A stretch of DNA of 64,000 nucleotides from positions 90,396,107-90,460,106 of the forward strand of contig OY720344.1 in the NCBI GenBank assembly GCA_963082975.1. Reading direction: 5' to 3'. Source of the DNA: Labia minor. Its lineage: Eukaryota; Arthropoda; Insecta; Dermaptera; Spongiphoridae. The translations under genes were made by a program, and so were the position numbers. Below the pieces are notes generated by a model that was not told the DNA's origin, searched no databases, and worked only from the letters and a program-made list of their open reading frames with translations. This document shows, piece after piece, positions 17,150-64,000 of the stretch. The stretch's first letter is position 1; each line of letters opens with the position of its first letter.

Positions 17150-17600
17150 TAAGTGAGTCGGTGTGTCTGTATTAGTATGTGTGTGTTTTTAATATATGGA
17201 CAGGTGCGTGTTAGCCGTGAGAACTGGGCCTCCCTAACTGGCTGGGTGGTGGTTGTGCCCGGGCCCGGGCGCAGGAACCATGCAGGAACCAAGGCGAAGG
17301 CGAAGGCGATGCCGAAGGCTCTGGTGCATTTAAGGAAGAGAGGGGGAAGGGAAAGAGAGAGGGGTGGGGGAAGGGGCGGTGGATGGCCGGCTGCTTAGGG
17401 CGCGTGCGTGTGTGTGTGTGTGTGCACGCGCACGCGTGTCTCTCGATCCGAGTGCCTGGGAACACCGGGGTGCGATGCGTTCCCACGCCCGCACCCTCCG
17501 TATCAGCTGGGCTACTGGGCTTCGTGACGTCGCAAGTCCTTCGAGGGAGGGGATTAGCAGAAACATAAACACCCGCCTCGCTCACTCGGTGTGTGCCATT
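17150..17600. promoter_or_regulatory. GC-rich island with two perfect Su(H) sites
   Basis: This is the most GC-rich block outside the genes. CGTGAGAAC (17216-17224) and, on the other strand, CGTGGGAAC (17487-17479) both fit YGTGRGAAM fully. CAGGTG (17201), CAGCTG (17504), CACGCG boxes (17425-17436) and CGCGTGTC (17433-17440) accompany them, with a (TG)n run and a purine-rich tract at 17332-17380. Open frames on both strands are GC-driven, low-complexity and unlike any family. It reads as a Notch-responsive enhancer or an unannotated promoter. Confidence 0.5.
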
Positions 17601-17699
17601 TAAATGAAAAACAAAAACACAAGAAAGAATGAGACTTTCAAAGCATCGAATCGACTTTATTATATACCAACCAATTCGATTTTTTTTTATTTTCATTCT

Positions 17700-24985: not shown

Positions 24986-25315
24986 GCAAATGAACTATTG
25001 AGGAACGGATAAAGCTTTAAGCAATTTTCTTTCACAACTTTTATACATTAATATTAAAAAAAAATATTTTTTTAATAACTAATTCTTTATTTATTTATTC
25101 CACTCAATATTGTATTTAATTTTTATAATATTTTAAGAATAATTAGAACCAGATATATATATATTGAATATATTGACCATATATATTACATAATATTTAT
25201 ATGGTTGAATAATGAAGAATCAAAAAATAAAAAAAATTACCGGAACCATTTCAAATGTGACTATATTTGACCATTTAAAACAAACAAAAATACCCTAAAT
25301 TGCATAATACTTTTT

Positions 25316-25435
25316 ACTATCTCGCCAGAGATAGTATTGCGATCATGAAAATTTTCGATGTTGAGATTTTGATGTTTTTATACGTTTTGAAGGTTCCTGA
25401 ATCATTTTCACTAAGGTTGAGAAAAATGTCTGTGT

Positions 25436-25486
<51 letters not shown>

Positions 25487-25491
25487 TGTGT

Positions 25492-25524
<33 letters not shown>

Positions 25525-25975
25525 GACAAGATTACGCAAAAACGGTTTGAGCTAGAATGATGAAATTTGGTACATGGACATTATTCAAAATTCATAGTTT
25601 TCTATCAACTTTTGAGAAATGTACCTCAACCGGAAGAGGGTCATTACCTACAACGTTTTGATTTTTTTTTCCTCTAAAGTGACCGTAAAAATAAAATAAT
25701 ATGTTTGATAATTTTTCACATGATTAATAATTGTATAAAACTGCTATATATAGAATTTCAGCTTGATTGAATTGCTGAAAGTACCAGATTTAATTTTTTA
25801 ACACTGCAAATTTCACGCGCCAACACGTGCCATGGTGCCATCAATAAAAAGCCAAACATGCGCTGGTTTAATATTTATTATTTATAATTTATAATTAATT
25901 AAATTTAATTTAAATATAATATATTATGTTATTTAATCCAATTCAAATTGCGAGATAGTCGAGTGGAGACACTCC
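25316..25975. mobile_element. Helentron-like non-autonomous element, full copy 1
   Basis: The left end ACTATCTCGC (25316-25325) is inverted as GCGAGATAGT (25950-25959). The left repeat also folds with the adjacent GAGATAG. The right end finishes in a stem-loop GAGTG-GAGA-CACTC (25961-25974). A (TG)n microsatellite of variable length follows the left core at 25432-25516. Short terminal repeats, a 3' stem-loop and an internal microsatellite match the HINE/DINE-1 class of Helentrons. The core includes ACGCAAAAACGGTTTGAGCT and ATGAAATTTGGTACATGG. No protein is encoded. Confidence 0.75.
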
Positions 25976-26559
25976 AGCTAATTTTATTATTTGTTCATGT
26001 CTTATTTTTTCCAAGTGAACAAAAAGACGTATTATTCACAATTTATGTTTTCAAAAGATTTTCAAAAAATATTTAAAAGATAATTTTGTCTTGAACGAAA
26101 GGGCGCCAATTCTAAACTCCCTTTTCATCCATTATAATAAGTTATAAGTTATATTCAATAAAATGACAGAGATCAATGAAAAGTGACGTTATACGGATTA
26201 AAAGAATTATTTATTATTATTATTAAATTATTTTTATTTTCAAAGTTGAATATTTATCAAATTTAATTTTATCTAAATTTTTTTATGTTTAATTAAATGC
26301 AAAATTTTTTTGCTTGTTTTTATTGAAAATTATTTTTTTTTTCCTGTTTATATAATTTGTCTTTTAAATTTTCCTTTGGTATAGAAAATTTGTCCGATTG
26401 TAATAAAAGACCTTATTTTCTTCCCATAAATTCTTTAAAACTGTCCAAATAATAAAAAGGGCTCGTGTCACGCGTAGAAAAAAGCAATTTTTCCTTTTTT
26501 TTTCTTGTTATTTACAACTAATAAAGATGGATAGATATGTGTCATTGATGTTGGTGTTT

Positions 26560-30867: not shown

Positions 30868-31128
30868 TCGACAGACTCCTAAAGAATTCCAGTTCCAAAC
30901 TATTCGAGAGCAGTACTACTGACCCATATTCTCACTATAAAAGAATCCAAATATATCTACACATTATGAGAAATCAGGAAGAAAGTTCATTGAAAAATTC
31001 TTGTTTGCTTAAAAATTAGGTTCATTAGCGGAAATAATTTTAATATTTAATTTGAATCCTAACCTGATTACAGATTTTATATAAATATGAATAAATAAAT
31101 AAGAAAAATAAAGAAATTTATTGTTTTT

Positions 31129-31757
31129 ACTATCTCGCCAGAGATAGTATTGCGATCATGAAAATTTTCGATGTTGAGATTTTGATGTTTTTATACGTTT
31201 TGAAGGTTCCTGAATCATTTTCACTAAGGTTGAGAAAAATGTCTGTGTGTGTGTATGTGTGTGTGTATGTGTGTATGTGTGTATGTGTGTATGTATGTAG
31301 GCAAGATTACGCAAAAACGGTTTGAGCTAGAATGATGAAATTTGGTACATGGACATTATTCAAAATTCATAGTTTTCTATCAACTTTTGAGAAATGTAGC
31401 TCAACCGGAAGAGGGTCATTACCTACAACGTTTTGATTTTTTTTCCTCTAAAGTGACCGTAAAAATAAAGATATATGTTTGATAATTTTTCACATGATTA
31501 ATAATTATATAAAACTGCTATATATAGAATTTCAGCTTGATTGATTCGCTGAAATTACCAGAATTAATTTTTTAACACTGAAAATCTCACGCGTCAACAC
31601 GTGACGTGGTGCCATCAACAAAAAGCCAAACATGCGCTGGTTTAATATTTATTATTTATTATTTATAATTTATAATTAATTAAATTTAATTTAAATATAA
31701 TATATTATGTTATTTAATCCAATTCAAATTGCGAGATAGTCGAGTGGAGACACTCCA
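31129..31757. mobile_element. Helentron-like non-autonomous element, full copy 2
   Basis: Nearly identical to the copy at 25316 from ACTATCTCGC (31129-31138) to GCGAGATAGT (31731-31740) and the stem-loop GAGTG-GAGA-CACTC (31742-31755). The microsatellite is shorter and reads (TGTGTA)n at 31243-31300. The close similarity suggests recent activity relative to the other repeats here. Confidence 0.75.
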
Positions 31758-33187
31758 GCTAATTTAATATAAAATTTATTCATTATAACTTTTTTTATAA
31801 TATATATTATTTATTATTATTTATATTATCATTATATATTTTAATCCATTTATTTTACATATTTTATATATATATAGCGATTTCATTTTTTTATAAATTA
31901 ATTTGTTCTTTTGTCTTTCCGTGATAATAGTATTCTTTGCTAACATATATGAAGTATTCTTTTTTCTATATTCTATTTTCCTTAATCATTAATTAAATCA
32001 AATTAATTTATAAATTTCTCCAAAAAAAAATAATAAAAGAAATAATAAATAATCCTAGATTATATTTTTTTATTAAAATAATTAAATAAAAATATAATTT
32101 TTAATAAGTAGATATTTATAATATATGAACTTACTTATAACTATTTATTATTATTATTATTTTTATTTTACTACTGAAATAGATTACATTAAGATTCCTT
32201 TCAGGTTTCTTGCTCATTTCATAATCTATAATTATTTTCATTAAAAAGATATTATTAAAAAAAATTTTCGTGAGAAAATGATTAATATTCTCTGATCAAT
32301 GTTAATAAATACAGGTTTGAATGATTTAACAACCAACTCATTTATAAATAGAAAAAAAAATTAAAAAAAAAAGAAACAAGTATGAAAAAAAAACAGTCAT
32401 CAATGAATGATCTGGATAAAGAAGTTGAGAGAAAGCGAAGCTTCTAATCTTTTAATGGTTTAGAAAATGCTAACAAAAACGGGGATAATGATACAGTTAA
32501 GGAGAAACAATGATTTGAATTGATTATCTTTATATAACTTTTAATGATAGAAGAATAAAATGCCCTAAAGATGTAACGCGACCTAAAATGGATCTCTTTT
32601 TTCTTAATAAAATAATAAATGGTCTATAATATCAATTTTTTAGGGAATTATGATGATATTATAAACTCTTATAAGATTTTTAATGCAAGTAAAAAGATTA
32701 AAAAAAAGTTAATGTAATAATAATAACGTAAATAACAAACATACATTTTTTAATATTATTAAAAATTTAATATTTAATAATGATAAAAAATATAATTAAA
32801 AGTATTGATGCAATTAAAGAGAGACAATTAGCATTTATCCTTTTTATTAATATTGAATTTTAAAATAACATGTCAATAAATAAAATTACTTTAGTTTTTT
32901 CTAATTGCTTTATTGATTAATATATATATATATATATATATATATTGTGGTGTCGGTTTATTTATCATTTTTATACTATTGAAGGTCTAAAAAAGCACAT
33001 TTTTTTTGTTGCAAAATTGGTTCGTTTTTGGAGATTTTTATTACTAATTTTTTTTTTTTTTGGAAATAATAATTAATTTATTATTTATTCATTGAAATTA
33101 ATTATTACACTGATTAATATTGTTGAATTTAAAAGAAAATAAATTTATGATCAATATTTGCTTAATATACATTTATTTATAATAATT

Positions 33188-38710: not shown

Positions 38711-40326
38711 CGGAAAATTACTATTTTATAGACTCAGAATTGGCTGAACCGATTTCTTTGAAATTAAATCACAATATTCTTATATACCTCTAGAGTAACA
38801 TAGGCTATAAATTTTATTAATATCTTATCAATAACCGCAGAAATTAATTTTTTAAAGTTTATATAATTCTCCGTGTTGTTCATTCAAGAGCAGCTCGCGG
38901 CTCACTGTCGGCCTAGCGGAATCATTTCAAACAATGAATTATCATAGAGATTCCCAATCGAAGAATTATTATAATATTTCCCTTTTTATTTTAAATTCTA
39001 ATATACAAATATCAATTCAATTAAATAATTTATTCTAAAAGTTCTCAATTTAATTAAAATATTTATTAGATCATATTTTTATCTTAAATTATTTTTTATT
39101 TAATTGAATATTTCTTCTTTTCTATAATATATATATAATAATATATAAATTTTATCATTGAATAATAAAAAAAAATATTATTTAACCTGAATTAAAATGA
39201 CTGAATTATATTATCTTTGTTTTTTATTTTAATTTAATTACTCTATTATTAATTACTAAATATATATATATATATTATATAAAAATTAAAATATGATGAT
39301 ATAAAGTTGTTTTAAATTTTTGACATTTTTAAATTGGGTATATTTTTTAAATTTATTAAAATGTCTTTTTTATTTATTATGTTTAAAAGATTCATTTTTA
39401 TTATGTGATATTAATAAAAAATAACGATGCTCTGTGCAAGTCGAATCATGTTGCACATAATTAAATAACAATTGCCAAACAAAGAATATAATATTTTTTT
39501 AAATTCTTATATTTAAATATCATTTCAATTAAATAATTTATTCTAAAAGGTCTCATTTTAATTAATTTAATAAAATATTTAAATCACCATTCAATTTTTT
39601 ATTAATAGGCTTCTTTTTTTATTTTTAATTTTTAATAAATTCTCTTTTTTTGATATGATATTAATAAAAAATAATATTAAATTGTATATATAAATATAAA
39701 AATTAGAATATTTGAATTTTTTTAAATTTTAACACATGTAATCAATCATATGCATTAAGAATGGAAAATTTTTAAAATCAACTTGCTATTAAATTCAGAA
39801 AAAAAATACTGATATATAGAATATATAGACTATTCGAATATAATTTAAAACTCTTTCTCTCCTTCTATTTTAAATTAAAAAAACGGAGTTTTAAGAAATT
39901 TAGATGCCATATGCAACATGGGTGGGTAAATGAATTGGGCTGGAAGAGGAGGCAATTTATAATTTTCTTCTAATTCAGATTTAGGACAAATCGTACAACA
40001 TTATATCAAATCTCGCTAAGAACATTCAATATTTTTGTACACAAATTATTCAGAGTATTGGCTAAGCGTATCACTCACAATCAGTTTATATTGAAATTTA
40101 TATAAATTAACAAAGTAAAAATTTTTATTTGTTTAAATTTTATTATAATGAATCAAAAAAAATTAAATATATAGATCACATGATTAAGAGAAGCAAAAAA
40201 CTTGACAGAAAATAACTGTTGGATGGAGGTCGGACATGACAGAAACTCTAAGCGAAATCTTCATATTTCGACGAATGATTTTCAAATCCCCTAGCACCAC
40301 AAAATTTAAGTTTCTTTTAAATTATT

Positions 40327-40740
40327 TTGCCTGTTGCATTATATGGGTGGGAGGCATGGTCTATGACCCTGGGAGATGAGAGTAGATTCAGAGTGTTTGA
40401 GAATAGGATTCTTCCCTGCATTTATTGGCCAAAGAAAGATGAGGTCACCGGGGAATGGGGGAGACAGCATAACAAGAAATTGCATGGTCTCTCTGCATCT
40501 TCAGAAATAGTTAGGGTTATAAAAGGGAAAAAGCTGCGATAGGCAGGGCACGTGGCTAGAATGGGAGAGGAAAAAGATATTGGTGGGAAGACCGATTGGA
40601 AAACGTCCGCTTGGAAAACCAATGACGCGTAGGAAGGGACGTAAGAGAGATGGAACAAGGGCTCAGAATGGGGACACTTGGAGAAATGTGGTTGTTGCGG
40701 CTAAGAACTTTCGAGTATCTTTGAGCCACATAGGTAGATA
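40327..40740 (+). pseudogene. LINE reverse-transcriptase ORF2 C-terminal remnant
   Basis: The frame opens with LYGWEAWSMTLGDESRFRVF then ENRILPCIYWPKKDEVTGEW, a familiar C-terminal block of insect non-LTR retrotransposon ORF2 after the reverse transcriptase. It stops at a TAG where AGHVARMG would follow, and a frameshift separates the GRPIGKRPLGKP block. The 5' parts (endonuclease, catalytic motifs) are absent. It is a dead fragment inserted within the Helitron region. Confidence 0.75.
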
Positions 40741-41139
40741 GATATAACATATACAATAATAATATATATAATTAATATAGTGATTAAATTAAAATATATT
40801 TTTTAAATAAGAACACAAAAAGAAATGAATGTTTTATGTAATATACTGATTGAAACAAAATGGATGAAAACCTTTTACTACTTTCAACCACCAAATACTA
40901 TGTACCACTCGGGGGTACAGGGGGCGGAGCCCCCGTCTAGGTGTGAAGAGCGCCGAAGGCGCTCTGAGCAGCTAGTATATATATATTTATAAAATATCAC
41001 TTTATAGTTTTAAACATAAGAAAATGTAACTGTTAAATAAATTCGAATAGAATCTATTTCTTATATAAATTAATATTTACAAACAATGGTAAATATGAAG
41101 ATTTTAGTTCTAGTGTTGATATTTTTAATATATCCAAAA

Positions 41140-41890: not shown

Positions 41891-42179
41891 TTAATAATAT
41901 TTTGAAACTTTACAAAGATATTTTTTTTAATTTTATTTAATTTATTCTACACACTATATTAATATAAAATGATTAATTAAATAATGAAATCGATAAATAA
42001 AGATGATGAGAAATAAAATTAAAAGTTTTTTTTTGAATTTTTTTATTTGTGGTTTCCAAAATGACAGCTGAAATATGTTTTTCTTTATATTTCAATAATA
42101 GCAATTGTAAACAAAAGGAGAAGTGAGCAAAGTAAGAAAAGTAGGGCTTTGTACTTAATCGATGCTTGCCAATTGACGA

Positions 42180-42403
42180 ATGGGGTGGTTTCGCCCGTCG
42201 AGGAGGGTTGGTTGTACGTCAACTTTGGGTTGCTGGTTTCCCACGGGGCAGCCCGTGACGTCACGCCGCGTGGCGGGGAGGCTAGCGGAGGGGCGGCAGA
42301 GGCAAGCGCTCGTCGAGCCAGTCTTCGGCACAGTGACACGCGTGGCAGCCACACGACCGGACACGCGTGACGCGTGCGCCGCCCCCGCCCCCGTGACAGT
42401 ACC
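42180..42403 (+). promoter_or_regulatory. Hey promoter / 5' leader with Su(H), CRE and CACGCG sites
   Basis: This GC-rich block just before the Hey ATG holds TTTCCCACG at 42237-42245 (CGTGGGAAA on the minus strand, a full Su(H) match), a palindromic CRE TGACGTCA at 42256-42263, and CACGCG boxes at 42337-42342, 42362-42367 and (minus strand) 42371-42376. The first two are CACGCGTG palindromes 25 bp apart. The transcription start is not identifiable by eye. The motifs suit Notch activation with Hey/Hes feedback repression; function is inferred. Confidence 0.6.
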
Positions 42404-42636
42404 ATGGCCTCCAACTTTGACTACAAAGTACTTGAGAATAAGACGGCAACTTCGTCGTTGCCTTGGGGTAGTTATGCACCACCACCCCCTCATCCAGCGG
42501 CGATGTGGCCGACACCTCCACTGCATCCGCCACCGCCGCCGATTGTGCAACCGCAACAGCCCATCCACTCGAAACGATTGCATCCATGCAGCGACTCCGA
42601 CGACGATGCCTTCAGCGAAGAATCATCCAAGGATCC
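42404..42636 (+). CDS. Hey: Hey coding exon 1
   Basis: Starts at ATG in ACCATGG and ends GATCC before donor GTAAGT (phase 2). It encodes residues 1-77 and two bases of Pro78. An upstream in-frame GTG at 42374 is not needed. Confidence 0.9.
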
Positions 42637-45600
42637 GTAAGTACTGCAATTGACATTCGTGGCATCCACCCGCTGGGCTGTCAACAGTGGATCGGTGACC
42701 TGTCATCGGTCCTCTCGAGACAGATCCACGTTGCTAGAGCTCACCTCAAACAACTATCAATTTAATTGCCTTTTTTTGAAAATTCTTAACTGACAACTCA
42801 CAAAAAATATTCTATTCCTTGAAAATTTAAGATTCAGCACATATATACTCGTATACTTACCTTGTCTATACTCTATTTACTTTAATCCATGCATATATCA
42901 ATAAATTGTATAAATTGTAAATTTTAAATTGTAAAAATTCATTCATTTTTTATTATATTCCTTTTACTCAATTAGTTCGAAAAAAAGCAAAAAAGTATTA
43001 TCCATTAAGATAAAAATAATCAAAATAATAATAAAATAATATCAATCAATTATTCTAATACTATATATAATATTGCATTAATACATGAATATATATATAT
43101 AAATGAGTCACATTTCTCAAATTTAATTATTTTTTTTTTAGTAATATATGAAAAAATCCCAATTCAAATATTATATGAACAAAATTGATTAAAAAAAATT
43201 AATTTCTGTCATTTAATTTATTATATAATATTTAAAAATAAAAAAAATATTTTATAAGATTTGATAATTTTATATATATCGCAAACATTTATAATCGCAA
43301 ACATTTATAAATTAAATAATCTTTTAAATTATGAATTTAAATTTACATGTAATTAATTCAATTTTTTAAATTGCAAATGGAAAAATACAAATATCACATT
43401 AGATTTTTTCCTTCAAACATTCAAACAACATTAATTCTAGTAACATAAAAACATATTTCATATAATTAAAAACAATTTCATAATTAAAAGATTGAAAATC
43501 ATGTGAAGTATACATTAAGTTTTTTTTCTTATATATATATATTCTGGTAAAACATTTTCAAAATGTAATTTTCTTTGAACTCAATTACCTTTTAATTGTT
43601 ATTTTGTTTTATCTCTGAGAAGTTCGACTTGGAAGTATTTAGCTGTTCTTCTTTAATTGACTTCAAATTACTTTCTTATCTTGAAATACAATCTAATAAT
43701 AAAACATTAAACGTTCTTTTTGTAAAAAAAGCAGGCAAAAACAGAAAAAAAATGTTATCAATCCTTTCCTGGAATCAGTTCATTTTTTTTTTGTCGTGTT
43801 TAAGGAGTAATTTTCTTTTTTTTTTTTTGGTTTTTTTATTTTTATTTTTACATTAAATAAAATCATTCGTTTTAAATAGGAAATAATTTTTAATAAAATT
43901 ATTTAGAACAAAATTTCAGCGTGAATTAGAAAAGGGTTGATTTTAATAGAATTCCAATAGCGAATAAAGACCCTGTAATATAATCAAGACCGGATTGGTG
44001 GTTTCACTGTCCCAAAAGGGAAACTTGCATATTCTATTCATTTCTCAACGAATAAGGGTGGGGATCATAACCTGAATTGTATATTTTAGGGAATAGTTTT
44101 ATACAGCTGGCAAAGTACATGACAGCCCTCAGTTTACTTTCCAATCACAGTTCGAGAAGTACCAAAAACACACACTATTGCTATATTGCCCTTTTTAAGG
44201 TTTGGTTTTAAAGTTTAGTGTTTCTGACTTATCAATGAGATTGATTAAAAAAAAATTATTAACTATTTAATCTCACCTCAAGACTAATGCATTTTGTGAG
44301 TGATAGATAATATGTACCACTCAGAAGCCAAAGCGATTAACTCGACATTTAAAGAAACTGAGAAAGTTCACAGCTTGTAGAAAATTCAGGTTTATTGATA
44401 ACTGAAAAATGTATATTGCATTGCAATATTAAGATTACCAAGTTCATTATTCATATGTTGCAGATTACATTACATTACATTACTGGCAAAATTTAAAAAA
44501 TTGGAGTTAATCGGTTTGGATTCTGAGTGGCATATATATATATATATTAAACATCCAAATTATTAAGATTTTTTTTTGTCTATAGTTTAGCATCACCGAC
44601 GGCAGGTACCGGCGGTGACAGTTGTCAGCTGATGACGAGAAAACGGAGACGCGGCGTTATTGAGAAGAGACGTCGCGATCGGATCAACAGGTCGTTAAGT
44701 GAACTTCGTCGACTTGTGCCCTCCGCCAACGAGAAACAAGCATCAGCCAAATTGGAAAAGGCTGAAATACTTCAATTAACCGTTGATCACCTAAAAACAC
44801 TTCATACCAAAGGTATTGTAAATATTCACATGTGATATCTTTCCTATTTTCATATTATTATAATTATTATTATTTTAAATTAAAATTAATTGAATATTAT
44901 TCAAATAAACATATTTCATGAATCGGCTGTTGGAATAGGATTATGTACTTGCTTATAAATATTTCAATAAATAAAATCCGTAAAACATTATTATAAATTA
45001 GTAGATTATTATAATTCAAATCATTCTATTTTCGTGGGTTTTATTAATATAAATTATTATATATTTATTTATTATAACATAAATACTACAATGAATAAGT
45101 ACAATTATAACATTAAAGAAATAACTAAGAAAAAATGTATTATTTTTTTATTTTATTTTTAATTTTAATTTTTTTTTTTGTAATATTTTAACTGCCTTAA
45201 AATACAAAATATATTTTAAAATATTTTAATTAAAATTAATATACATTATAAATTTAAGCAGTTTTAATATTTTCAAAATTTAAAATTTAAAAATTTATAC
45301 AAAATTAAATTTAAATTTTATTTAAAGACAGTCTATAAAAATGTGAAATTTGATTTTTCACAGAACAGTAATGATAATTTTTTTTGTTTTTTTTTTTTTT
45401 TTTGTTTACTACAAATTCAAAACAATATCACTCAATCAAACTAGAACAATGCTCTGGCATATCGGTGATATTTTAATTTGTGTGGATAAACAAACAAATC
45501 TCTCGATTTAAATAAAAATCTTTTTATAAAAATTTTATATTTTTAATTCAATTAATTTTATTTATTTGTATATGATGTAGTTTATAATTCATTCTTTATA

Positions 45601-48600
45601 GTTCAAAATAAAAAATATTATTTTTAAATTCATCTTTTCTAAAAAAGAAATTGGTTATTTCTTTATGTGAATTTAATAAAATTTTATTTAGATTTAATTT
45701 TAAATGTTTTAAAAATTAATGAGAAACAAAAATGATAATCTTTTAACATTTAATTTAAATTTTTTAAAATTTTGTTGTATTAATTTATTAAAAAAAAATG
45801 AGTTAATTAATCTCAACAATGCCTATTTTAATTAGTGTTTGAAATAAAAAAGTATTTTTAATATGGAAATTTATATATTTATCGATTCATCTTTTATAAA
45901 TCTTCATTTTAATTCTGGTTTTCCTGTTCGAACCCTTCAAGATTTAAAAAATTGTTATCCTATTTTTTTTCTACTTTTTATCTTTCGATCAGTTTTTTTT
46001 TATTTTGAAATACAACTCTTTCCAATTGATAAATGATTAAAAAAACATTTATTATACCTTTAACCGCATTAATTATATGCTCCTAGAATCTTAGATGCTA
46101 CTCCAATTAAGTTATTTAAACAAAAAATATCTATAGGCTATAGGTACATTTATATATTTATATATAAGATTAAAAAAAATAATGATCAATTATTTTAATT
46201 ATGATAATCATTTAATAGAAGTTTTTCACTTTGATTGTGAAATTAAATAAAAAATATAGTTCTATAATTGAATCGATAAAACAAATTTTAAATAATTTAA
46301 TGTAATATTTATTATTTATAATTTAATTTAAGTTATATTACACATTATTAGGAGAAGAATTATTAGGTGTATAAAATTAATTGTTTTATTTCTTCAAATT
46401 TTCCCCATACATTTACATATAAGTAATTTTTTTAATTTTGCAAAATATTAGAATTGTTTTTTTTTTTTTGTAATTTCTATATAATCTTTAAATTGGATTA
46501 TTCATTTACATTGTGAATTAAATTTTAAAAATGTTAAATCTAATCTAACCAAAATTGCCTTATACCATATAATGATAGATCATATCTAAATAATTAAACG
46601 ACTACGCAATCCTAAACTCATTCTAAACGGCTTCATGGATCTTAAGGATAAGGAATAAGGTTGAAAATTTCAAAAAAGTTGATCAGTTCCAAAGTTATAG
46701 GCAAAAAACCGACCCAAATAACCAACGCGCCTCTGGTGGCTCAGTTAAGAAGTTGTTCTTCAATATAAAAATAATAATTCCAGAAATTTCCATACAAAGA
46801 ATGTTTATAATACTAAAATTCTAATATTTTATAATATTAAAAGCAAAATTAAATTACTAATTACTCTTAATTGATTAATATTTTCTAAAACAAAGAAAGT
46901 AATATTTTTTTATATTTATATTTATATTTTGAAAAATAGTCCAATTTGCAAATTTGAGTGAAAACGAAGATCCAAATGAGAAAAAAATATACTGATTGAT
47001 TTAAAATGAATTAAAACCTTTTGCATATAGACTTTCAACAAATTACTATGTATTACATCGGGGGTACAGGGGCAGAACCTAGACTAGGTGCGAAGAGCTC
47101 CGAAGGAACTCTAAGAATCTAGTAATAATAAAACATTTATGTTTAATATATATATATATATATATATATATTACTACTAAGAGATACTGAATGAACTTAC
47201 ATTTTTATGTATTGGCCAAAAATAGATCAAAGGGTTTCCCTTCCCTCCATGAAATACTCAATCGTTCTTAATTATCTCATTTATTGCAAAACGTTTCCGT
47301 TCTTTTATTTATACAATTCAATTTTTCAACTAATTTAGTGCAAAAATTCTCCATTTTAAACAAGAACAAAGCCTTGTTTGGTCATTCATTTTCATCCACG
47401 CGTTTGTAATCTCCCTCTATTCTCGATGGATTTTTTTAAGATTAGTAGTTATTATTATTTTCGTTTTTTTGTCTTTTATGCCTATTCATTGGTTCTTGAA
47501 ACTGGAAACAAAACAAAAACAAAAAAAATTCGATGTTTGGTGAAAAATTCAGAATGACCATTCGGTGGAGGTCACGTGCGGGTCACGGCTTTGGCGACCG
47601 GTCCAACCGGGTCCTCGTTTCCGGATTCGGTTAGGGTTTCTTTACTCGTCCAATCCAATCACTAATTATACACGCATCAATAGAATCGAACCGGGAAAAA
47701 AATGAAGCGTCCCTAGAAACAACTAAGCACTAAACAACAACGACCAACGTATTGTTCTATATTTTTCATATTTTTTATATTAATTTAGAAAAATACAAAA
47801 TACTTCGTTGTAAAAAAATCACGACAAAATAATAAATAATTTGAATAATTAAATTCTATAATTATTAATGAAAGTAATTCTAAAGTAATACTTATATTAA
47901 AATGTTACAAACAGATAATGCATGATCTTATAGACTAAAAGAATCCTTTGCTTAATCAAAATATCAAATTATATAAATTGTGGTAATTGTCTACTTATAT
48001 ATATGTATGAAGGATTTCGATAAAACTTTACCAGTAGATTCCTTTTTTGATTCCAAACAAACTTTCAACAAGAAGTATGTGGCGGTCGCTTCTAGTTTAC
48101 AGGATAAAAATTATTAAAGTTTGCATATAAATACATTGATATATATTCTATTAGCTACTATGTTTTATTATTTGACCACCAGATGGCTCTACTAATTTTC
48201 TATTTTTATATGTTCGGTATAAAAAGATTAAAAAATTAATTAATTAAATAATTTTCCTATATCCAAACCGAACTTATATAAACCGAAAATTAGTGAATAA
48301 GTTAATAATTGGTGAATTAGTCAATAAAACATTATTAAATGGTCATTCATAACTAGTTTATATGCAAACTTTAATAATTTTTATCCTGTAAACTAGAAGT
48401 GAGCGCCACATACTTCTTGTGGAAAGTTTGTTTGGAATCAAAAAAGGAATCTACTGGTAAAGTTTTATCAAAATCCATCATATATATATATATAGTAAAC
48501 AATTACCACGATTTATATAATTTGATATTTTGATTAAGGAAAGGATTATTTTAGTCTATAAGATCATGCATTATCTGTTTGTAACATTTTAATATAAATA

Positions 48601-51200
48601 TTACTTTAGAATTACTTTCATTAATTATTATAGAATTTAAGTATTCAAATTATTTACATAGATACATACATATAAGTTAATAACATATCAATTATCTAAA
48701 AACTTAACTTTTGTATCTTACAATATATTTATTTTCAATTCTTTTGTCCAAAACAATATTTCCGTTTTTTGTTTCTTTTTTAATTCAATCAATAACATCG
48801 TTGATTAGAAGTTCCACCCTGTCATGGTTGATTAGGAAGGCGTTGTGTGCATTGAAACCCATTTTGAGAATAGATTTCCTTGTGCATCTTAAAGGGGTCT
48901 CAGATATGATTTGAGGGGGAAAAAATATATGAAAGGGCGAATTGGAAAGAATGACACAAGTCAATAGGGCTGCATTGATCTCTATCTAGGAGGGATTTCT
49001 AGACGAGATGAATGATCAAAAGACCAAAATACTTTTGATTTCGCTTGAATAGATTGGAATCAGACCAAGCAAGCTTTTTCACACATATTAATCCAATGCT
49101 TCTTTATTACAATTTGTTTTTATTAGAAAATATATATAATATGTGTACATATGCATATGACTCAGAGATATACATTTTTAATATAACAATTAAATAATTG
49201 ATATATTAATTATATTCACTATTTCAATAATTTATTCTTTAATTAAAATATAAATTGTTCTTTTAATGAAGAATTTATTTAATTGAATAAAACTTATAGC
49301 TGAATTAATTAGGAAAATTCATTTTAAAAATTTTTAATCTTATTTTATCACAAAAGTTATTATATTATTTCCTTAAGAGAAATTAATAATAAAAATATAT
49401 GCCTACTTAATGTATTTATTTATTTAATAAAATAATATTTAAAACAAAATCTCCATATTGCTAATCTAATTAATACCTTGATGACAAGCTTTCATTTTTT
49501 TTAATCAATTAAGCGTTTTGACATTAAAATTAATTCCGAAATCAATTATTAAGTATTCTGAGTAACATACCTTTATTATTAAAATTTTTAATTATTTTTT
49601 ATGAGATATTGGAAAAATAACATTACAAATAAATTTATAATCAGATCATGAATTTTAAAATTAGTGGATAAGTGGTTAAAATAGTTGTTTTTATTTATAT
49701 AAAAATAAAGTATATATTCCCAATACTGGTTGTTGTTGGAAATTATAAAAAAAAATAATTTTTATCTTAATATTATTCAATTTTATTACAATTATGTATT
49801 TCTTCGTTTTTCTCTAAAAGTTGACAAAGTGAAAGATTGAAATACCTCCATATAAATAAATATTATTAAAGAAGAATTATTCAAATAAATATTTGAATAT
49901 AATAAATAATATTTTATTTTATAACGCAAACTATTTTATTCTATTATTTACTATTTTTATTTATGTATTTATTTAATTAATAAAAGTTATTTATATTCTT
50001 GATGCGTCTATTTTATAAGTGAAAATTAAATATATATGTTTTATATAAGAAAAATATACATGTTAATTATTTTTTTTAAGTAAAATATAGAATTTTTCTT
50101 TGAAATTATTAAAACAAAATCAATAAGTATTTATATATTTTTAGGATATAAAATCTAATTTTATTAAATTATTTAGAATTATAAACAAAAAAAAATATAT
50201 ATATGCCTATATAGATATATATAAAATGCGAGAGAGTGTGGTAACAGGATTATTTCATTGAAATTTTGAAATGTATATTCATTCAAATCAAATCTGTCTT
50301 TTTAATTATAAGAATAAAGGAGTTCGATTTTTCATATCCAGTTGCAATGATGTAAAAAAAATTATAAAGAAAATTTTCCAATAATAAAATTATATTATAC
50401 TAATGTAAATATTTAATAAATATGTTTTTTTCTATTTTTTGAATTGGGAATAAAAGCAAACTTGAAATTTTTTTTAAAAAGAGAAAAACTGATCCTTTGA
50501 AATTAGCAATAGAAAAGTGAAAATGCAATATAAAGTTTATAGAAACTAATACTTTATCAGCTTAAGTTTAGACTATTACATATTCAAGAATTTATTAATA
50601 TTAATTAAAATGTAAAAATAACCATTTGACTTTCATAAATTAAGTTTTAATCAATTTTTTTATATATATTATGAAATTTTCACATTTGCCATATAATTTT
50701 TAATTTATTTCAATTGAACTATGTTTTGTATCGATAAAAATGATATCACAGGAAGATTTATTTAAATGGCTAAATGGATATATTGTCTATTCTATTAATC
50801 AGTGAATGATGGGTTGGCCTCGACAAGGTGCAAAAGTGGCAAGAGGTAATGGCCCGGATGCGCTTTTTGAATTGTTTCATCATTTGCACGTGGGAAATGG
50901 ACGACAGGTGTCCGGCGGATCCACTTGTTGATTCCCACGCGGCGCCGGCAACCAGCTGACGCTGTACAGGTTCAAGTCCTAACACGAGATATCTTCGTCG
51001 ACAATTAACTAACGGAGTACATTTGAAAAAAATCCATTTGTACCAATTGGGACACCACACTAAATACATAATTAGCGTATTAATAGAATTAGGTTGTTAC
51101 AGGATACTAATGGAAATTTCACGTTTAAATTTGAGTAGAAAAAGGGAGAGAATTTGTTTCAATTATAAATATTAGATTTTAGGTATTATCATTTTTTTGG

Positions 51201-51232
<32 letters not shown>

Positions 51233-53620
51233 AATGTTATTTTTATTAATTATTCTTGTAATTTATCTATATATTCTAGACTAGACGTGGGATGAGGAGT
51301 CTTTTCAATTAGGGACTCCACCTCCCTTGCAGAATTTCGCGAGTCTAATGAATTTTTTTTTTAGGCTTTTTTAATTTTTTATATTCAATGTTCATTTAAA
51401 AAAATAACACTATTTTTTCGTTTAAATAATAAAATGTTGACCTTGAATATTGTTTGGTATATATATTTTCTAAAATAATCCTAATTAGTAACAAATCTTT
51501 TTATTTACCTGTAACTAGTCAAAATATAAGTTGTTTTAATTCTTTTATTTAATTTCACTAGAAGCCATAAATGCATAAGCATTAAAAAAACTACATATTT
51601 ATATTATTTATTTATTTATGTTTTAAATCTCTAATTCTCTCCATTTAAAAGTAAAGGGTTGTATGCACAAATTCAATATATTTATAGTTGAGCTGTGAAA
51701 TAATGAAGCATCTCTTATATACATCAATGAAAGGGGAATGAGCTGACCTGTGGTCAGAAAAAAATATATCTGTGTAATTATAAACTTTATAAGATATACT
51801 TAAAACTATAAAAATAAATAAATAAAAACCTATATACACCCTTATAATATCATATATGTATATATATATAAGTTATTTTAATTTTAATTAAATTTTTATT
51901 TTATTTATTTTTTTTTTCATGTAACTTGTAAATTGAATTTCATGCTTTTTTTCTTTAAATCAAAAATCTTAGGTATTATTCTACCATAGAACAAACATTG
52001 TCAGTGTTACAATGATTTAATACATATATATATAATTCTAATAATTTTTATTAAATGAATTGATTAATTTCAAAAAGAAATATCTTTCTTATGGAAATTT
52101 GTTCAGCTCGTCTTTCTTCTTTTCAATTATTTGAAAATATATGGAAATAGATAGGGTTTAAAGGGTGCATTCTATTGAACTCGATTAACAATACATCTGG
52201 TCACAATGGCTATTTGGAAGAAAACCTGCTTAAAACAACTCGATTCTTGAACTTTTTCCCCCGAGCGTAGGATTTGTACATTGCTTTATCTAACCCAAAT
52301 GAATATCTAATTCTCTTTAAGCGATTGCTTTGAGATGTAAAGCAGCCAGCCGTATAATTACATTCTGTTCTCATTATAATTATGTATTCTCTTGTGTGGT
52401 TGCAGGTTCCGATGCACTTTCTTATGAAGCGCATAAACAGGCGATGGATTATCATAACCTCGGCTTTCGTGAGTGTGCTGCAGAAGTTGCACGGTAATAA
52501 AAATTTTTTTATGAAATTTATATTTAGTTTATTCATGACTACGATAAGCATTTGTATAAAAGAAAAAGCATAGAATTGTTTTATTTTCTAATTTAATATA
52601 AAATTAAAATACTTCTTTAATACATAGCGATAAAACAACTATTTTCATTTATATTTTTTTTATTAAAGTAAAATTGAAATTCTCTTAAGATTTTCTTCAA
52701 AAATTAAAATTACTAAATTATATTTTTTTCAATTTAACTTATAAATGTAGATTAGATTGATTGTATTATATAAAAATAATAAAATAATAATATCATTATA
52801 TTATATAATAAATTAAAATTCAACTAAATTTAAAACAGTAAAATAAAAATATATAAATTATGAAATAATTTTATTTAAATAAAGGGATAGAGAAAAGCTT
52901 TTTATGTAATAATTAAGAGGGCGGTACTATACAATCTTAGTAATGACATTTGGTAGCGCCATCTACCAATATAGAACTAAATTACGAATTTTGTTTTAGT
53001 TCAAAATGTATATTTTTAAATATTAATTCATATCATTTAATGCATATTTTAATATTATATTTATATATTGTTAATTTAAATCTTATAAAATATTAGGAAA
53101 AAATTAATTATTACTTTAAATTATTGTTTTTTTTTATAGGTATCTTGTTACGGTAGAAGGAATGGATATTCAAGATCCCCTCAGACTTAGACTGATGTCG
53201 CACCTACAATGTTTTGCTGCTCAACGTGATATATCAAAGGCACCACCACCAGGGACAACTTCTACCCCAGTAGGACCACCTCCGCCTTCATCAACCACAT
53301 CACCATCTCTTTCGGCGACCTCTGCACCCTATGTGACATCAAGTACGCACTGTGCTGCACCGCCGCCACCTCCTCATCATCATCACATGGCACCCACATG
53401 GCCCTCGGGTGCCTATCATCCACCTGCACCGCCAGCGCCACCTCCACCACCACCACACCACCAAGACTATAACACCTCACCAGCCTATTTAGCTACCGGG
53501 TATGGAAATCACCATCATTCGGGAAGTCATTCAGCAGCAGCTGCAGCGGCAGCCGCGGCTGCCGCCTCTGCAGCAGCAGCTAAACCTTACAGGCCTTGGG
53601 GTGCTGAACTTGCTTATTAA
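42404..53620 (+). CDS. Hey: Hey, bHLH-Orange transcriptional repressor (four coding exons)
   Basis: Coding exons 42404-42636, 44586-44812, 52406-52493 and 53140-53620 join in frame to 342 residues. Hey proteins act in the nucleus as Notch-induced dimeric repressors. The N terminus (1-77) is Pro/His-rich with an acidic DSDDD patch. The bHLH (about 96-151) opens [19 protein letters not shown]; its basic region has the Gly ([11 protein letters not shown]) that separates Hey from Hairy/E(spl), which have Pro there. The Orange domain (about 166-210) includes [15 protein letters not shown] and [16 protein letters not shown]. The tail has Pro/His and poly-Ala runs, then YRPW at 333-336. The start is chosen for ACCATGG context. 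Introns are 1949, 7593 and 646 bp. The last residues are GAELAY, not the canonical TE(I/V)GAF-type end. The identity is secure. Confidence 0.96.
42637..44585 (+). other. Hey intron 1
   Basis: Donor GTAAGTACTG, acceptor TTTTTTTGTCTATAG. Three AGs lie within 20 nt (44585, 44590, 44604), but only the first keeps the frame into the bHLH. The intron is AT-rich and carries a MITE (44313-44533) just before the acceptor. Confidence 0.8.
44313..44533. mobile_element. MITE family M2, copy 2, in Hey intron 1
   Basis: Terminal inverted repeats TGTACCACTCAGAAGCCAAA and (inverted right end) ATGCCACTCAGAATCCAAAC. The interior matches copy 1 at 34.6 kb, including ATGTATATTGCATTGCAATA. It ends about 52 bp before the exon 2 acceptor, probably overlapping the branch-point region. 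Confidence 0.75.
44586..44812 (+). CDS. Hey: Hey coding exon 2 (bHLH)
   Basis: Encodes residues 79-153, with the basic region, both helices and the loop ([20 protein letters not shown]). It closes with ACCAAAG before donor GTATTG (phase 1). Confidence 0.93.
46975..47123 (+). mobile_element. Helitron 3' end, degenerate copy
   Basis: It aligns with the terminus ending at 40975: ACATCGGGGGTACAGGGGC, CTAGACTAGGTGCGAAGAGC, CTCCGAAGGAACTCT (decayed hairpin) and GAATCTAG followed by T. The upstream CAAAACCTTTTG-type segment also matches. The rest of the element is not traceable by eye. Confidence 0.6.
47545..47660. promoter_or_regulatory. GC-rich island in Hey intron 2 with DR5 and CACGTG
   Basis: AGGTCA (47569-47574) and GGGTCA (47580-47585) are direct repeats with a 5-base spacer, a DR5 nuclear-receptor arrangement. 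CACGTG (47573-47578) overlaps the first half-site and spacer. The block is complex and GC-rich, with CCGGTCCAACCGG. An intronic enhancer is inferred. Confidence 0.4.
47833..48656. repeat. 824-bp palindromic foldback element in Hey intron 2
   Basis: The left arm (from about 47833) and right arm (to about 48656) are inverse copies for at least 300 bp each, with few mismatches: GAAAGTAATTCTAAAGTAAT, ACAAACAGATAATGCATGAT, GATAAAACTTTACCAGTAGA and CAGGATAAAAATTATTAAAG all recur in inverse. The core of about 230 bp has GACCACCAGATGGCTC. The inner half is shared with the element at 5331-5841. A transcript through it would fold into a long hairpin. Confidence 0.8.
50800..51010. promoter_or_regulatory. 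Candidate Notch-responsive enhancer in Hey intron 2
   Basis: Within 75 bp: CACGTG (50887-50892) overlapping a full Su(H) match CGTGGGAAA (50889-50897), CAGGTG (50905-50910), an inverse Su(H) core TTCCCACG (50932-50939) overlapping CACGCG (50936-50941), and CAGCTG (50953-50958). The two Su(H) sites face each other like the classical paired site but are farther apart. The GC-rich block is isolated in AT-rich intron. A 99-codon frame on the minus strand across it has no recognisable domain. Confidence 0.6.
52406..52493 (+). CDS. Hey: Hey coding exon 3 (start of Orange domain)
   Basis: Acceptor TTGCAG, donor GTAATA. It encodes [20 protein letters not shown] then RECAAEVA, with the final Arg183 codon split 2+1 into exon 4. 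The first codon (Gly154) is split with exon 2. Confidence 0.92.
53140..53620 (+). CDS. Hey: Hey coding exon 4 (Orange end, tail, YRPW)
   Basis: Acceptor TTTTTATAG. It encodes [20 protein letters not shown] and the rest of the Orange domain, a Pro/Ser/His-rich tail, a poly-Ala tract of about 18 residues broken by Ser, and the C-terminal [12 protein letters not shown] before TAA. Confidence 0.95.
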
Positions 53621-53889: not shown

Positions 53890-56340
53890 ATGTACCTTTT
53901 AGTGTAATACAAAGCTATTTGCACTATTGAAACAAATAATTTTGATAAAATTATTCATATACTTAATATATGCACTTCTTACGCACATTATTTATGAAAA
54001 TTTTTAAATAATATATATATAATTTTTGATACAATGCTTTTATTATTAATAGAATATTATTCTTAATAATCAAATATCTAAATCTTTTAAAAGACTTTAT
54101 ACACTTAAGGTAAATCTTATAATTTTTTAAATAATCCCTATTAAATTAAACATATACTCCCTCATTCATGTATAAAATTAATATATATACTTTTATATAT
54201 TCATAATTTCATTGGTAAGAAAAATGGAGGTCATTATAAAAATAATTTATCTCAGAGTACTAAAAAAAAATTGTGCCATTTTTTAAAAAATTAAAATTTA
54301 ACTCATTTTCAAAACATAAAAATACAAATAAATATTCAATTTAAAAGAATATTTTTAAATTAAATTTTGATATAGGTATATATTTGATATTTTTGATAAA
54401 ATTATTAATAATATATGATATAAAGTTTTTTATACAATTTGTAAATAAGTGTATTAAAAAATTAATGTTCATTTTCCATATATATTTATATGAATAATAT
54501 AAGAATATGATTATTTTTTATATGGAAATTTATGATAAATTCTTACATAGAACTTTCATTAACGTTAAAAAAAGTCAAATTATAGATATTTATTTTATAA
54601 ATGAGTGAATGATTTTAAAAATATCCAATTTTAAAATAATATATTTACACTAAACAAATTTTGCATCATTTTATCAATTAGATATTTAATAAACTTGTTA
54701 TGCTTAACAAAAAATATTTTATAACTAAAAATTGACAAATCATTTTCACTCTGTACACTAAACATTTTTTATACAAATTATTAAATGAATAAAGTAAAAA
54801 GAAACATTGAGATGATTGAGATTGATAAATAGATTTTCTTAAAAATTTAATATAATTATTTTTATATTATTGAAGGAAATGTTTAATTGATAAACATGTC
54901 TTCAATAATATATCTTATCTAGTCTTAAAGTATATTTATACATGTATATATAAATAAAATTATTTTCAAAATATATAATATGTAAATTATTAATATTTTA
55001 TACTACAAGTACTTAACATTTTTCCCATTAAATATTATTATTCATTTTATAAATATTTAAATTTTGCTGTTATGAGTTAAAGAATTTTCATTTTAAGTTT
55101 GGAATTTTTAAAAATAAAAAATCTTTTTAAGTTTATTCAACTTAATTCAAAATTTTTTACCTAATAACAAGGGATAAATATTAAATCTTGAAAAAACCAA
55201 ATATAACTAATAACAATTTAAAGAGCACTTTCAGTTTTTATTCATTACTATAGATTTTCTTAATTAGTTGAAAAGTTTATAAAAATTAAAAACTTTAGAA
55301 AAATGGTTAAAATTCAAACATTTAATTTGGTTTATTATTATCACTAATAAATTTTTTCTTAAAAAAATATTAGACATTTAAATTCTTAAAAATTTTAATA
55401 ACATTTAAATAATATTTTATTTTTTAAAACAAAAATCATAGTTCAATTTATTTTATTTCATTTTTGATTAAATCAATATTGTATCTTCTATATAGATTAG
55501 AATAGCAACATCCCTTAATTATTTTATTTTTCAAAACAGACAATTGAAATGGATTTATCAAAACGAGTTTTTCCTTCACCTGAAAGTATTTTTGTAAATC
55601 TCATATTCTTCTACATTTAAAAAAAATGTTTCATAAATCTTATAAGGTATGACATCCACATTTACACTAATTAAAATTTTCATTTTATTAAAACTTTTTA
55701 GGAAACTGTAGTTGTCCAAAAAATTTTGTTTTATTTTTTTAAAAATATTTTCAAACAAATTGATTATTCTAACATTTATAATATAATTTTGAATCTTTTA
55801 TAAAAACAACAAACAACTATATTGCAAGTGTCTAACAGATACCCTAAATAATTACATTTTATTTAGAATTTAAATATTTTTACTTATATTACTCTATAAA
55901 TAAAATTATATTATATCTTATCAATATGAAGATAAAAACAAAAGAACAAAATTTGAATATCAGACTTATTAAAAAACATAAAATTGCATAGATTTAAATT
56001 GTATGAATATTATTTGAAAATGTTTAAATTTTTTCTATGAATATATGTAAAAGAATTGGATAAGTTTGAATGTGTGTAAATATTTTTATAAAATATCAGT
56101 GATTTTGTCTTTTATATCACAACTAGTCCATAATTTATAAAATTTTATATTAATATAATTTAAATAAAAATATATATTCAACTTATCTGGAATAATTATT
56201 CCATTTTATTTTATTGCAAATAAATTTGTTAGTGTAAAATAAAATTATTTGTTTGTTTGCATTTTGATCTCAATAAAATTCTAATTAATAATATAAAAAA
56301 TTGTATATTTTTTTGTTTTGTTTAATTAATCCTAATTTTA
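53890..56340. other. AT-rich intergenic DNA between Hey and staufen
   Basis: No reading frame, island or duplicated element was recognised. Part of it may be Hey 3' UTR. Confidence 0.45.
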
Positions 56341-56349
56341 GAAATTACA

Positions 56350-56660
56350 AGAATCCTACGTTACGTCACGTGTCCAGTCACGTGCAGGTGTGTGTTCGTG
56401 TGAACTTTGACATCATCACGCGCCCTTCAAAACTGGACCACGACCTCGAATTTTCCTCCTGCACGAATCCTTTCTTCCCTTTTTTTTCAACATCTGATTT
56501 TCCCCTAGACACTAGTCTTGAAGAAGACCTGAGGCGCCCACCTCTGCTTCGCATTGCAAAGGATTAGCTATTCCCAGAGGGTGCATCATGTGCGCACTGC
56601 AAAGGGCAGCCTACCTCAACCACCTCCCTAGCAAGTCCACCCTAAAAATGAGCCAAAATT
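56350..56660. promoter_or_regulatory. GC-rich block with paired CACGTG and CAGGTG
   Basis: CACGTG at 56367-56372 and 56379-56384 (starts 12 bp apart) abuts CAGGTG at 56385-56390. The block lies 2.7 kb downstream of Hey and 2.3 kb upstream of the staufen 5' exon. An 88-codon frame across it lacks any domain. Assignment to either gene is open. Confidence 0.4.
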
Positions 56661-56994
56661 AAAAGAATAAAATTAAAATAATTAAATAAAAGCAATATTA
56701 AAGAACAAATTTTATATCTTAAGTAGATAAAAAGAAAAGAAAAAACTAATCTATTATCTATGATATTTTAATATAATGAATGAATTATTCTATTATTATT
56801 TTCATATACAATATATAATTATTTTTTTTAGTATTATTGGAAAAAGAACATTTTTTTTTGTAAAAATAGATATAATTTTTTTCTTAAATAAAAATTAATT
56901 TTTGTAATAAATTCGAAATGATTTTTACCGTTTGGTCATAAACTGGCCGGACAAGAACCATCCCTTTTAAAATGATCAAAATTAATTTTTCTTA

Positions 56995-62300: not shown

Positions 62301-64000
62301 TACGTATTCTCTTCTCGTATAAATATAATTATTATCATTTTTCAAACACAAAAACTTAACATAATATTAAATATAAAATTTAAAGAAATTTGAATTTGGA
62401 TTATTTCTTTTACATCATAAGGTTCGTTAACATCAAAGCAACTTATTTTAATATTTGTTAATGTTAATGATACTTTAGTATAATTTCAATAAAAATTCTC
62501 AGTAAAAAGATATCAAATTAAATATTCCCTTGCCAGTCCGATTCTGCTCTCCTTGTAATCTACCAAGGGTGGAAAAATCTTAAGATATATTAATAAATAA
62601 TATCATTCAAAAAAAATTAATATATTGTTTTTTTGAATGTACTTAATCACTTCAAGGTTGTGAACTTAAATGCATTATCTATCCCAATATAAAACTTATA
62701 ATTGTTTAAATAAACCAGTTGTTTAATTAATATACTTATTATATAATATTTAATAAATATGAAGTCAATCTCTGGCTTTAAATAATAACCATCAAGTTCT
62801 AAAATTAATTATATTAATCTTGTTAGAGTAAGATTTTTTTTGACATAAAAATATCGCTAACTAAATTTTATTTATTAACTGAAATAAAAACAAACAATTA
62901 AAGATATGTTCAAAATCACAGTAGATATAGTAGATATAGTAGATGTATAGTATGATATTCTTACACTATAAGATTGTTTTGATGTTTATCAACCTTTATT
63001 TTAGATATCAACCTAATATGAAAACAATTTTTATATTAAAAAGTCTAACTCATTTATATTATCACTTTTAAATGTTACATTATATTTTAGTTTTCTATTA
63101 GCTATATTTTTTCAAAATATTTTCTATTCTTCATTTAATTTAATATCTATTTTCTATTAAAATTATTTTATTTTACTTTTTATAACATTAATTTTATTTT
63201 ATTTGTTTACTAAATTCTTTATTATTCTATTATATTATTATATCATAATATAATGATATAATTAAGTATATTAATATTTTTATAAATCAATTTTGAAGGC
63301 ATGTCTGGGGGCGGAGAGAATGACTCGCATCGGCCAGCACCTCAGACACAATCACAGCCGCCGCCCATGGCCCAAAACGGCGGAGGAAATCAGGCGCCCC
63401 CAACCGCCGCTGCTGCAGCAGCCAATGCCGCTGCAGCTGCCGCGGTCTCCAATCATTTGGCAAACACGAAAGAGAAAACTCCGATGTGCCTGGTTAATGA
63501 GCTAGCCAGGTTCAATAAGGTAACATATGTTAATTCTACTCTATCATTAACATTAAATTTTTTGAGGAAAAAAATATATTTTTCATCAAATAATGATTAA
63601 TAATTACTTACCGTGAAATTTTATTATTAAATTAAAGATTAAATGTAATCAATCATTTCTCTTTTTTTTAGATCCAGCACCAATATAGATTAACGAACGA
63701 ACAAGGTCCTGCACATAAAAAAGTTTTTACAGTAACATTAAAACTTGGCGATGAAGAATATGCATCCGATGGAGCAAGTATTAAAAAAGCTCAACATAGT
63801 GCAGCCAACGAGGCTCTGCAACACACACATTATAAACATCCACCTCCTAAAGCAGCTCGTAATGTGCGTATTGGAAAAAGCAATGTCACACCAACAGTTG
63901 AGCTCAATGCGTTAGCGATGAAACGCGGAGAGCCAGCCATCTATACCTTTCTCGAAACAACCCCTCCTATTGCACCTCCTGCCCAACCTCCGCCTCCACC
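59280..64000 (+). CDS. stau: staufen, dsRNA-binding protein, 5' part (gene continues past window)
   Basis: Coding exons 59280-59338, 60460-60533, 62050-62172, 63299-63519 and 63672-64000 (open end) join in frame, giving 268 residues so far. Staufen binds double-stranded stems in mRNAs and directs their localisation and translation. The N terminus (1-145) is low-complexity: His-rich MLHHHPVHLPSNQQ, then Pro-, Ala- and Gln-rich. dsRBD1 (about 146-213) runs from TPMCLVNELARFNK through IQHQYRLTNEQGPAHKKVF to KKAQHSAANEAL, holding the GPAHKK loop and KKAQ helix that contact RNA. dsRBD2 starts near 228 (VTPTVELNALAMKRGEPAIY) and enters a Pro-rich stretch, as in insect Staufen, whose dsRBD2 carries a long insertion. 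The dsRBD exons are secure; the three upstream exons rest on splice sites and phase. Confidence 0.9.
60460..60533 (+). CDS. stau: staufen coding exon
   Basis: Acceptor TTGTTTTAG, donor GTATAT. It encodes LGQPVSMSMHHQRLMNLPPP then QANP, entering in phase 2 and leaving in phase 1. Confidence 0.65.
62050..62172 (+). CDS. stau: staufen coding exon (alternative acceptors)
   Basis: Acceptor CTTTTTAG at 62049, or in frame 18 nt later after GCCAG at 62067; both keep the phase. It encodes MDLMPGLVRCPGVLMTMPQP and then an Ala/Pro-rich segment ending KLPQS. The donor is a weaker GTGGGG. Confidence 0.6.
63299..63519 (+). CDS. stau: staufen coding exon with start of dsRBD1
   Basis: Acceptor TTTTGAAG, donor GTAACA (phase 0). 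It encodes MSGGGENDSHRPAP, a Pro/Gln- and Ala-rich spacer and TPMCLVNELARFNK. The ATG at 63301 could also start a shorter isoform. Confidence 0.88.
63672..64000 (+). CDS. stau: staufen coding exon, dsRBD1 end and dsRBD2 start (partial)
   Basis: Acceptor CTTTTTTTTAG. It encodes IQHQYRLTNEQGPAHKKVFT and the rest of dsRBD1, a short basic linker (KHPPPKAARNVRIGKSN), and the first helix of dsRBD2 followed by a Pro-rich run that reaches the window edge still open. Confidence 0.95.
   Translation, partial: MQHQYRLTNEQGPAHKKVFTVTLKLGDEEYASDGASIKKAQHSAANEALQHTHYKHPPPKAARNVRIGKSNVTPTVELNALAMKRGEPAIYTFLETTPPIAPPAQPPPP

Follow-up and report, generated by a model that had tools for sequence, protein, structure and literature searches.

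A candidate Notch-responsive enhancer in Hey intron 2 and the overlap of its Su(H) sites with HEY-type boxes

The Drosophila enhancer HeyIN2 lies in intron 2 of Hey, which carries four sites of the Su(H) consensus YGTGRGAA with Su(H) ChIP signal; a 734 bp fragment of this intron drives Notch-dependent expression in the CNS and gut (PMC11353301). According to the same report, mutation of all four sites abolishes the reporter in Hey-positive cells while some ectopic expression stays, and deletion of the intronic sites alone leaves Hey expression and viability unaltered because an upstream enhancer, HeyUP, is redundant with them (PMC11353301). Su(H) sites also occur as cooperative paired sites (SPS), for which gaps of 15-17 bp are given in flies and mammals (PMC8494340); with gaps lengthened up to 36 bp, little or no cooperativity is reported in HEK293T cells (PMC7685452). 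The consensus of the proneural E-box is given as RCAGSTG, and the same source notes a chance ACAGGTG without effect in a different enhancer (PMC3390367). As to the product of the gene itself, HEY proteins are reported to bind CACGYG, CACGTG well and CACGCG poorly, and HEY1 represses HEY1 in mammalian cells, where it is described as the most strongly down-regulated gene (PMC3355086).

The window analysed here, a stretch of 64,000 nucleotides, is AT-rich animal DNA (24.8% GC) from a genome of 604,477,936 bases in 71 contigs. It contains on its plus strand a Hey gene, for which we built a spliced model of four exons coding for 342 residues, with the splice sites set by eye and conforming to GT/AG throughout. 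Coding exon 1 (42404-42636) is followed by exon 2 with the bHLH (44586-44812), exon 3, in which the Orange domain begins (52406-52493), and exon 4 with the remaining Orange domain, the YRPW end and the stop (53140-53620), the last three being placed by the spliced model together with the domain search. The model protein matches HLH (1.6e-14) and Hairy_orange (3.1e-13), and its C-terminus carries YRPW, the form typical of Hey. Intron 2 extends from the bHLH exon to the first Orange-domain exon (44813-52405, plus strand, 7593 bp, 22.6% GC), and the module described below is located 6.1 kb inside it, 1.4 kb short of exon 3. The two domains, the YRPW end and the exon model bear out the location in Hey intron 2 that a sequence-only reading of the same DNA had assigned to it.

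The module is built around two predicted Su(H)/CSL sites, identical 8-mers CGTGGGAA that converge on each other 35 bp apart. Site 1, on the plus strand, reads CGTGGGAAA (50889-50897), that is CGTGGGAA followed by A, and fits YGTGRGAA; site 2, CGTGGGAA on the minus strand (50932-50939), faces it. Each of them has four bases in common with a CACGYG box: site 1 shares CGTG with CACGTG, a class B E-box of the HEY type (50887-50892), and site 2 shares CACG with CACGCG, a weaker HEY-type box on the plus strand (50936-50941). Between the Su(H) sites lies ACAGGTG on the plus strand (50904-50910, with CAGGTG at 50905-50910), which matches the proneural E-box RCAGSTG. A further E-box, read from the sequence as CAAGTG on the minus strand (50922-50927; CACTTG on the plus strand), stands opposite CAGGTG within the pair and renders the module roughly symmetrical. 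CAGCTG (50953-50958) is situated on the outer side of site 2, in a CCAGCTG context that does not fit RCAGSTG. The facing Su(H) sites, their overlap with Hes/Hey-type boxes and the E-boxes CAGGTG between and CAGCTG after them had all been proposed beforehand, and all were found at these positions.

We consider it likely that this stretch is a Notch-responsive enhancer in Hey intron 2, of the kind known from the fly. What we observe in its favor is the gene, the intron, the sites, the lack of a second copy in the genome search and a higher density of CGTGGGAA than the genome rate predicts. As in HeyIN2, several high-affinity YGTGRGAA sites are present in the intron numbered second of a Hey gene, here the two CGTGGGAA at 50889 and 50932. 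A site for a local activator, for example a proneural RCAGSTG, is available as ACAGGTG at 50904-50910, a sequence match alone, and the CACGYG sequence expected of a Hey auto-repression element occurs as CACGTG at 50887 and CACGCG at 50936. In contrast, the fly sites lie at +1708, +1808, +1896 and +2026, spread over about 320 bp, whereas here we find two sites with a gap of 35 bp and with HEY-type boxes. No sequence alignment joins HeyIN2 and the module, and that the introns are homologous is an assumption.

Factor binding, a response to Notch and a part played by the E-box are inferred on this reading. With Notch off, Su(H) and co-repressors would occupy both high-affinity sites and keep the enhancer silent; with Notch on, Su(H)-NICD-Mastermind would act on the two sites, each as a monomer, and raise Hey transcription in concert with a local activator, for which a proneural bHLH dimer bound to the intervening ACAGGTG is a candidate. 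The locus also resembles the fly gene with its HeyUP in having upstream Su(H) sequence: one CGTGGGAA is situated in the promoter-proximal region of Hey (42238-42245, minus strand), some 160 bp before the ATG, and may correspond to an upstream input from Notch. Given the redundancy of HeyUP in the fly, even a true counterpart of HeyIN2 may be dispensable here. If the enhancer reading is true, a second arthropod lineage would have a Notch enhancer in Hey intron 2, as in the fly, which would point to an old arrangement of upstream and intronic Notch inputs. Among the literature matches listed, we came across no report of the module or of Su(H) being tested in the Hey intron of an insect other than the fly, an absence that carries little weight.

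A converging YGTGRGAA pair with starts at most 60 bp apart arose in none of 300 dinucleotide shuffles of the window with 100-bp blocks, in 1/300 with 200-bp and 2/300 with 400-bp blocks, and in 2/200 whole-window shuffles. Six matches of the five motifs within 80 bp were obtained in none of 400 shuffles with either of two block sizes, while 9 of 1000 letter-permuted motif sets scored six or more matches per 80 bp. Across the genome, CGTGGGAA has 3531 matches in 604,477,936 bp (one per 171 kb) and shows no enrichment over its reversed control (3864). Relative to this genome rate, there are six matches in the window versus 0.37 expected (Poisson 2.8e-6), three in the Hey span 42051-53617 versus 0.068 (4.9e-5) and two in Hey intron 2 versus 0.044 (9.6e-4), Poisson values that overstate the case because they assume uniformly distributed sites, yet both Su(H) sites sit in a GC-rich island. 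Among its 840 anagrams CGTGGGAA is tied as the commonest in the window (6 versus a mean of 0.46). Measured by the looser YGTGRGAA against local shuffles, the excess in intron 2 is weak, with two sites versus 0.41 and 6.8% of 1000 shuffles reaching two.

The pair CGTGGGAA-N10-40-TTCCCACG has two occurrences in the genome (reversed control 1; uniform expectation 0.16), and CGTGGGAA-N10-40-TTCTCACR likewise has two, versus four for its control, so that such pairs are not in genome-wide excess. Since CGTGGGAA is unenriched over its control and the converging-pair control was found once, motif matches alone mean little. Perfect converging CGTGGGAA pairs are very rare without being in excess, and one of the two lies within a known Notch target. 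The other is situated at C2:74424901-74424939 (L003:1501-1539) with a gap of 23; in the 3 kb read there, its right half also reads TTCCCACGCG and hence overlaps CACGCG, and GCCGCCAT lies between its sites.

The module is carried by a GC-rich island of 370 bp (50741-51110), the core of which (50801-51000) has 53% GC versus 22.6% for intron 2. A search of the genome with a 301-bp query (50760-51060) returned the self match only, and a similarity search of the window gave no further copy (best other match E 0.067); as the genome search skips common words, 'single copy' denotes the search outcome and is no proof. Exact-pattern scans of two further contig collections, one genomic and one viral, for stray insect DNA had 0 matches, an outcome that is uninformative. 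The module had been described as isolated in an AT-rich intron, and the base composition of the intron agrees with this; the isolation is less complete, as intron 2 contains a second GC-rich island (47461-47770, with CACGTG at 47573) and the window has 27 of them. One such island about 25 kb upstream of Hey (17071-17690) contains CGTGAGAA (17216, plus strand), CGTGGGAA (17480, minus strand), four CACGCG, CAGGTG and CAGCTG, a motif set equal to that of the module. Another, 2.7 kb downstream of Hey (56321-56700), has, in about 55 bp, a pair of CACGTG boxes 12 bp apart together with GCAGGTG, CGTGTGAA and CACGCG. Intron 2 further includes a large inverted repeat (47833-48656, 85% over 840 columns), which we take to be MITE-like and to which 5313-5861 is related (74%).

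Beyond simple activation, the sequence-only reading had proposed competition for the shared bases between Su(H)-NICD and a repressor, Hey or a different bHLH-O protein, by which Hey would silence its own intronic enhancer. Of that reading, the Notch part is supported by the identity of Hey, intron 2, Su(H) sites far above the genome rate and the precedent in the fly; direct Hey feedback by mutually exclusive binding is possible but unproven. As a full account of the module we regard such competition as unlikely, though it deserves to be kept in mind, and repression by Hey on the overlapping CACGTG and CACGCG could tentatively be seen as an added layer to the enhancer. Similarly doubtful is a compact, almost symmetrical arrangement with a HEY-type box fused to either Su(H) site and the two E-boxes in the middle, so that activator and repressor would exclude each other on both halves and form a two-site self-limiting switch within the gene under its control, with the 35 bp spacing non-cooperative by design.

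A Hairy_orange search of the genome gave six other loci (Hey itself is absent from the result because its domain is split), and 10 kb around each was scanned, 60 kb in total. Both module sites overlap CACGYG versus 0/16 YGTGRGAA sites at these six bHLH-O loci, which leaves the feedback idea open, and none of the other eight YGTGRGAA sites of the window does so; confined to CGTG-type sites, the comparison is 2/2 versus 0/13 (Fisher 0.0095), although it was picked after the site had been seen. Genome-wide, 163 CACGTGGGAA and 120 CGCGTGGGAA, together 283 of the 3531 CGTGGGAA sites (8.0%), overlap CACGYG anyway, and by chance both of two sites would do so in about 0.6% of cases, a figure for a trait that was selected post hoc. 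In part the overlap arises because the CGTG core is common to the Su(H) site and the box. As base rate we used the 8% at real CGTGGGAA sites in place of the rate at which CA or CG precedes any CGTG in the window (53/136; 33/63 in islands), which includes simple repeats and existing CACGTG boxes. The composites are not enriched over their reversed controls (163 versus 290 and 120 versus 204), and since the controls are the commoner, nothing points to a fused element of general occurrence.

A fused Su(H)/HEY-type box may also be present at the fly site inS4, where the mutagenesis primer reads CGCGTG; the same overlap is hinted at, as we infer from a primer in which the altered letters are unmarked. 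With mammalian HEY1 negative feedback the module shares CACGYG boxes in regulatory DNA of a Hey gene, the difference being that promoter binding and repression are reported as measured there, whereas the present case concerns an intron and is known from sequence alone (PMC3355086). The activity of the mouse Hey1 promoter is described as non-oscillatory in neural progenitors (PMC8589987), which we counted against feedback. The promoter-proximal region of Hey (42051-42403) contains six CACGCG matches in addition to the CGTGGGAA at 42238 (minus strand); as a simpler seat for feedback than the intron, it appears the likelier one by its motifs. CACGTG is moreover bound by many other proteins. With CACGTGGGAA as a text query of the literature, no Notch composite site was apparent by title among the matches listed. 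The module would also be a simple case in which to see whether a Notch target can, by way of fused Su(H)/CACGYG sites, limit its own response.

It is rather improbable that the module is an ordinary enhancer or open-chromatin island, in which the E-boxes CACGTG, CAGGTG and CAGCTG would serve Myc/Max-, Snail- or proneural-type factors and the Su(H) sites would be incidental. The 27 GC-rich islands are in keeping with this, as are the abundance of the five motifs in the window (72 matches versus 20-23 in local shuffles) and similar box clusters at 17.4, 42.3 and 56.4 kb, but CGTGGGAA exceeds its genome rate here and the rare converging pair falls in an established Notch target, both of which speak against it. 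Of a repeat family in the window (7335-7731, 25311-25987 and 31124-31768, 82-90% alike), two copies carry one CACGTG each (25824, 31598), by which the CACGTG count of the window is swollen.

A canonical cooperative SPS is hardly credible as a description of the module: two perfect high-affinity sites do stand head-to-head, but their gap of 35 bp falls outside the 15-17 bp range, and the genome has E(spl)-like pairs of its own at 15-17 bp. In view of the published spacings, we would expect each site at 35 bp to work independently, as a CSL site of its own. Two of the six Hairy_orange loci (L012 and L013, on contig C10, about 18 kb apart) are E(spl)-like bHLH-O genes with a WRPW end. At L013 a script scan found TGTGGGAA-N17-TTCCCACG adjoining GCAGGTG, and at L012 we identified by eye CGTGGGAA with a degenerate partner 16 bp off and a second, likewise half-degenerate pair at 15 bp, both near GCAGGTG; such a Su(H) pair was present at none of the remaining four loci (10 kb each). 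Judged by these motifs, the canonical Notch code is present in the E(spl)-like genes of this genome, and the Hey module differs from it by spacing. The module shares with the E(spl) SPS+A of the fly and of L012/L013 the head-to-head Su(H) sites and a CAGGTG E-box no more than a few tens of base pairs away; it departs from them in the gap (35 rather than 15-17 bp), in having ACAGGTG instead of GCAGGTG and in the position of the E-box between rather than beside the sites.

Equally hard to credit is a non-regulatory origin, be it a repeat fragment, a hidden exon or a structured RNA. In its favor a 108-codon open frame on the minus strand (50773-51096) and a 51-bp hairpin of the pair (z -2.9) could be cited, and against it the single copy of the island in the genome search. 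The sole genome match of the putative repeat fragment is the stretch itself, with no copy in the window. A frame of 108 codons is reached in 6.2%, 8.8% and 10.8% of 1000 local shuffles at three block sizes, and this frame gave no Pfam family above cut-off, the sub-cut-off match being CENP-N (E 0.095). The hairpin forms because its arms are palindromic: when the Su(H) arms are kept and only the spacer is shuffled, 20% of 2000 sequences fold equally well, and the z-scores go from -2.8 to -2.9 for pieces of 51 to 55 bases to -1.86 for 81 and -1.27 for 131 bases. For the module stretch, neither an Rfam match at gathering score nor, with the bacterial settings of ARAGORN, a tRNA was obtained.

Elsewhere in the window, the open frames at 40206-40760 resemble the tail part of a reverse transcriptase from a non-LTR retrotransposon, a Pfam search of one piece being without match. 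The exon at 63672-63998 encodes a double-stranded RNA binding motif (PF00035, 2.5e-13), and we take it to be Staufen-like.
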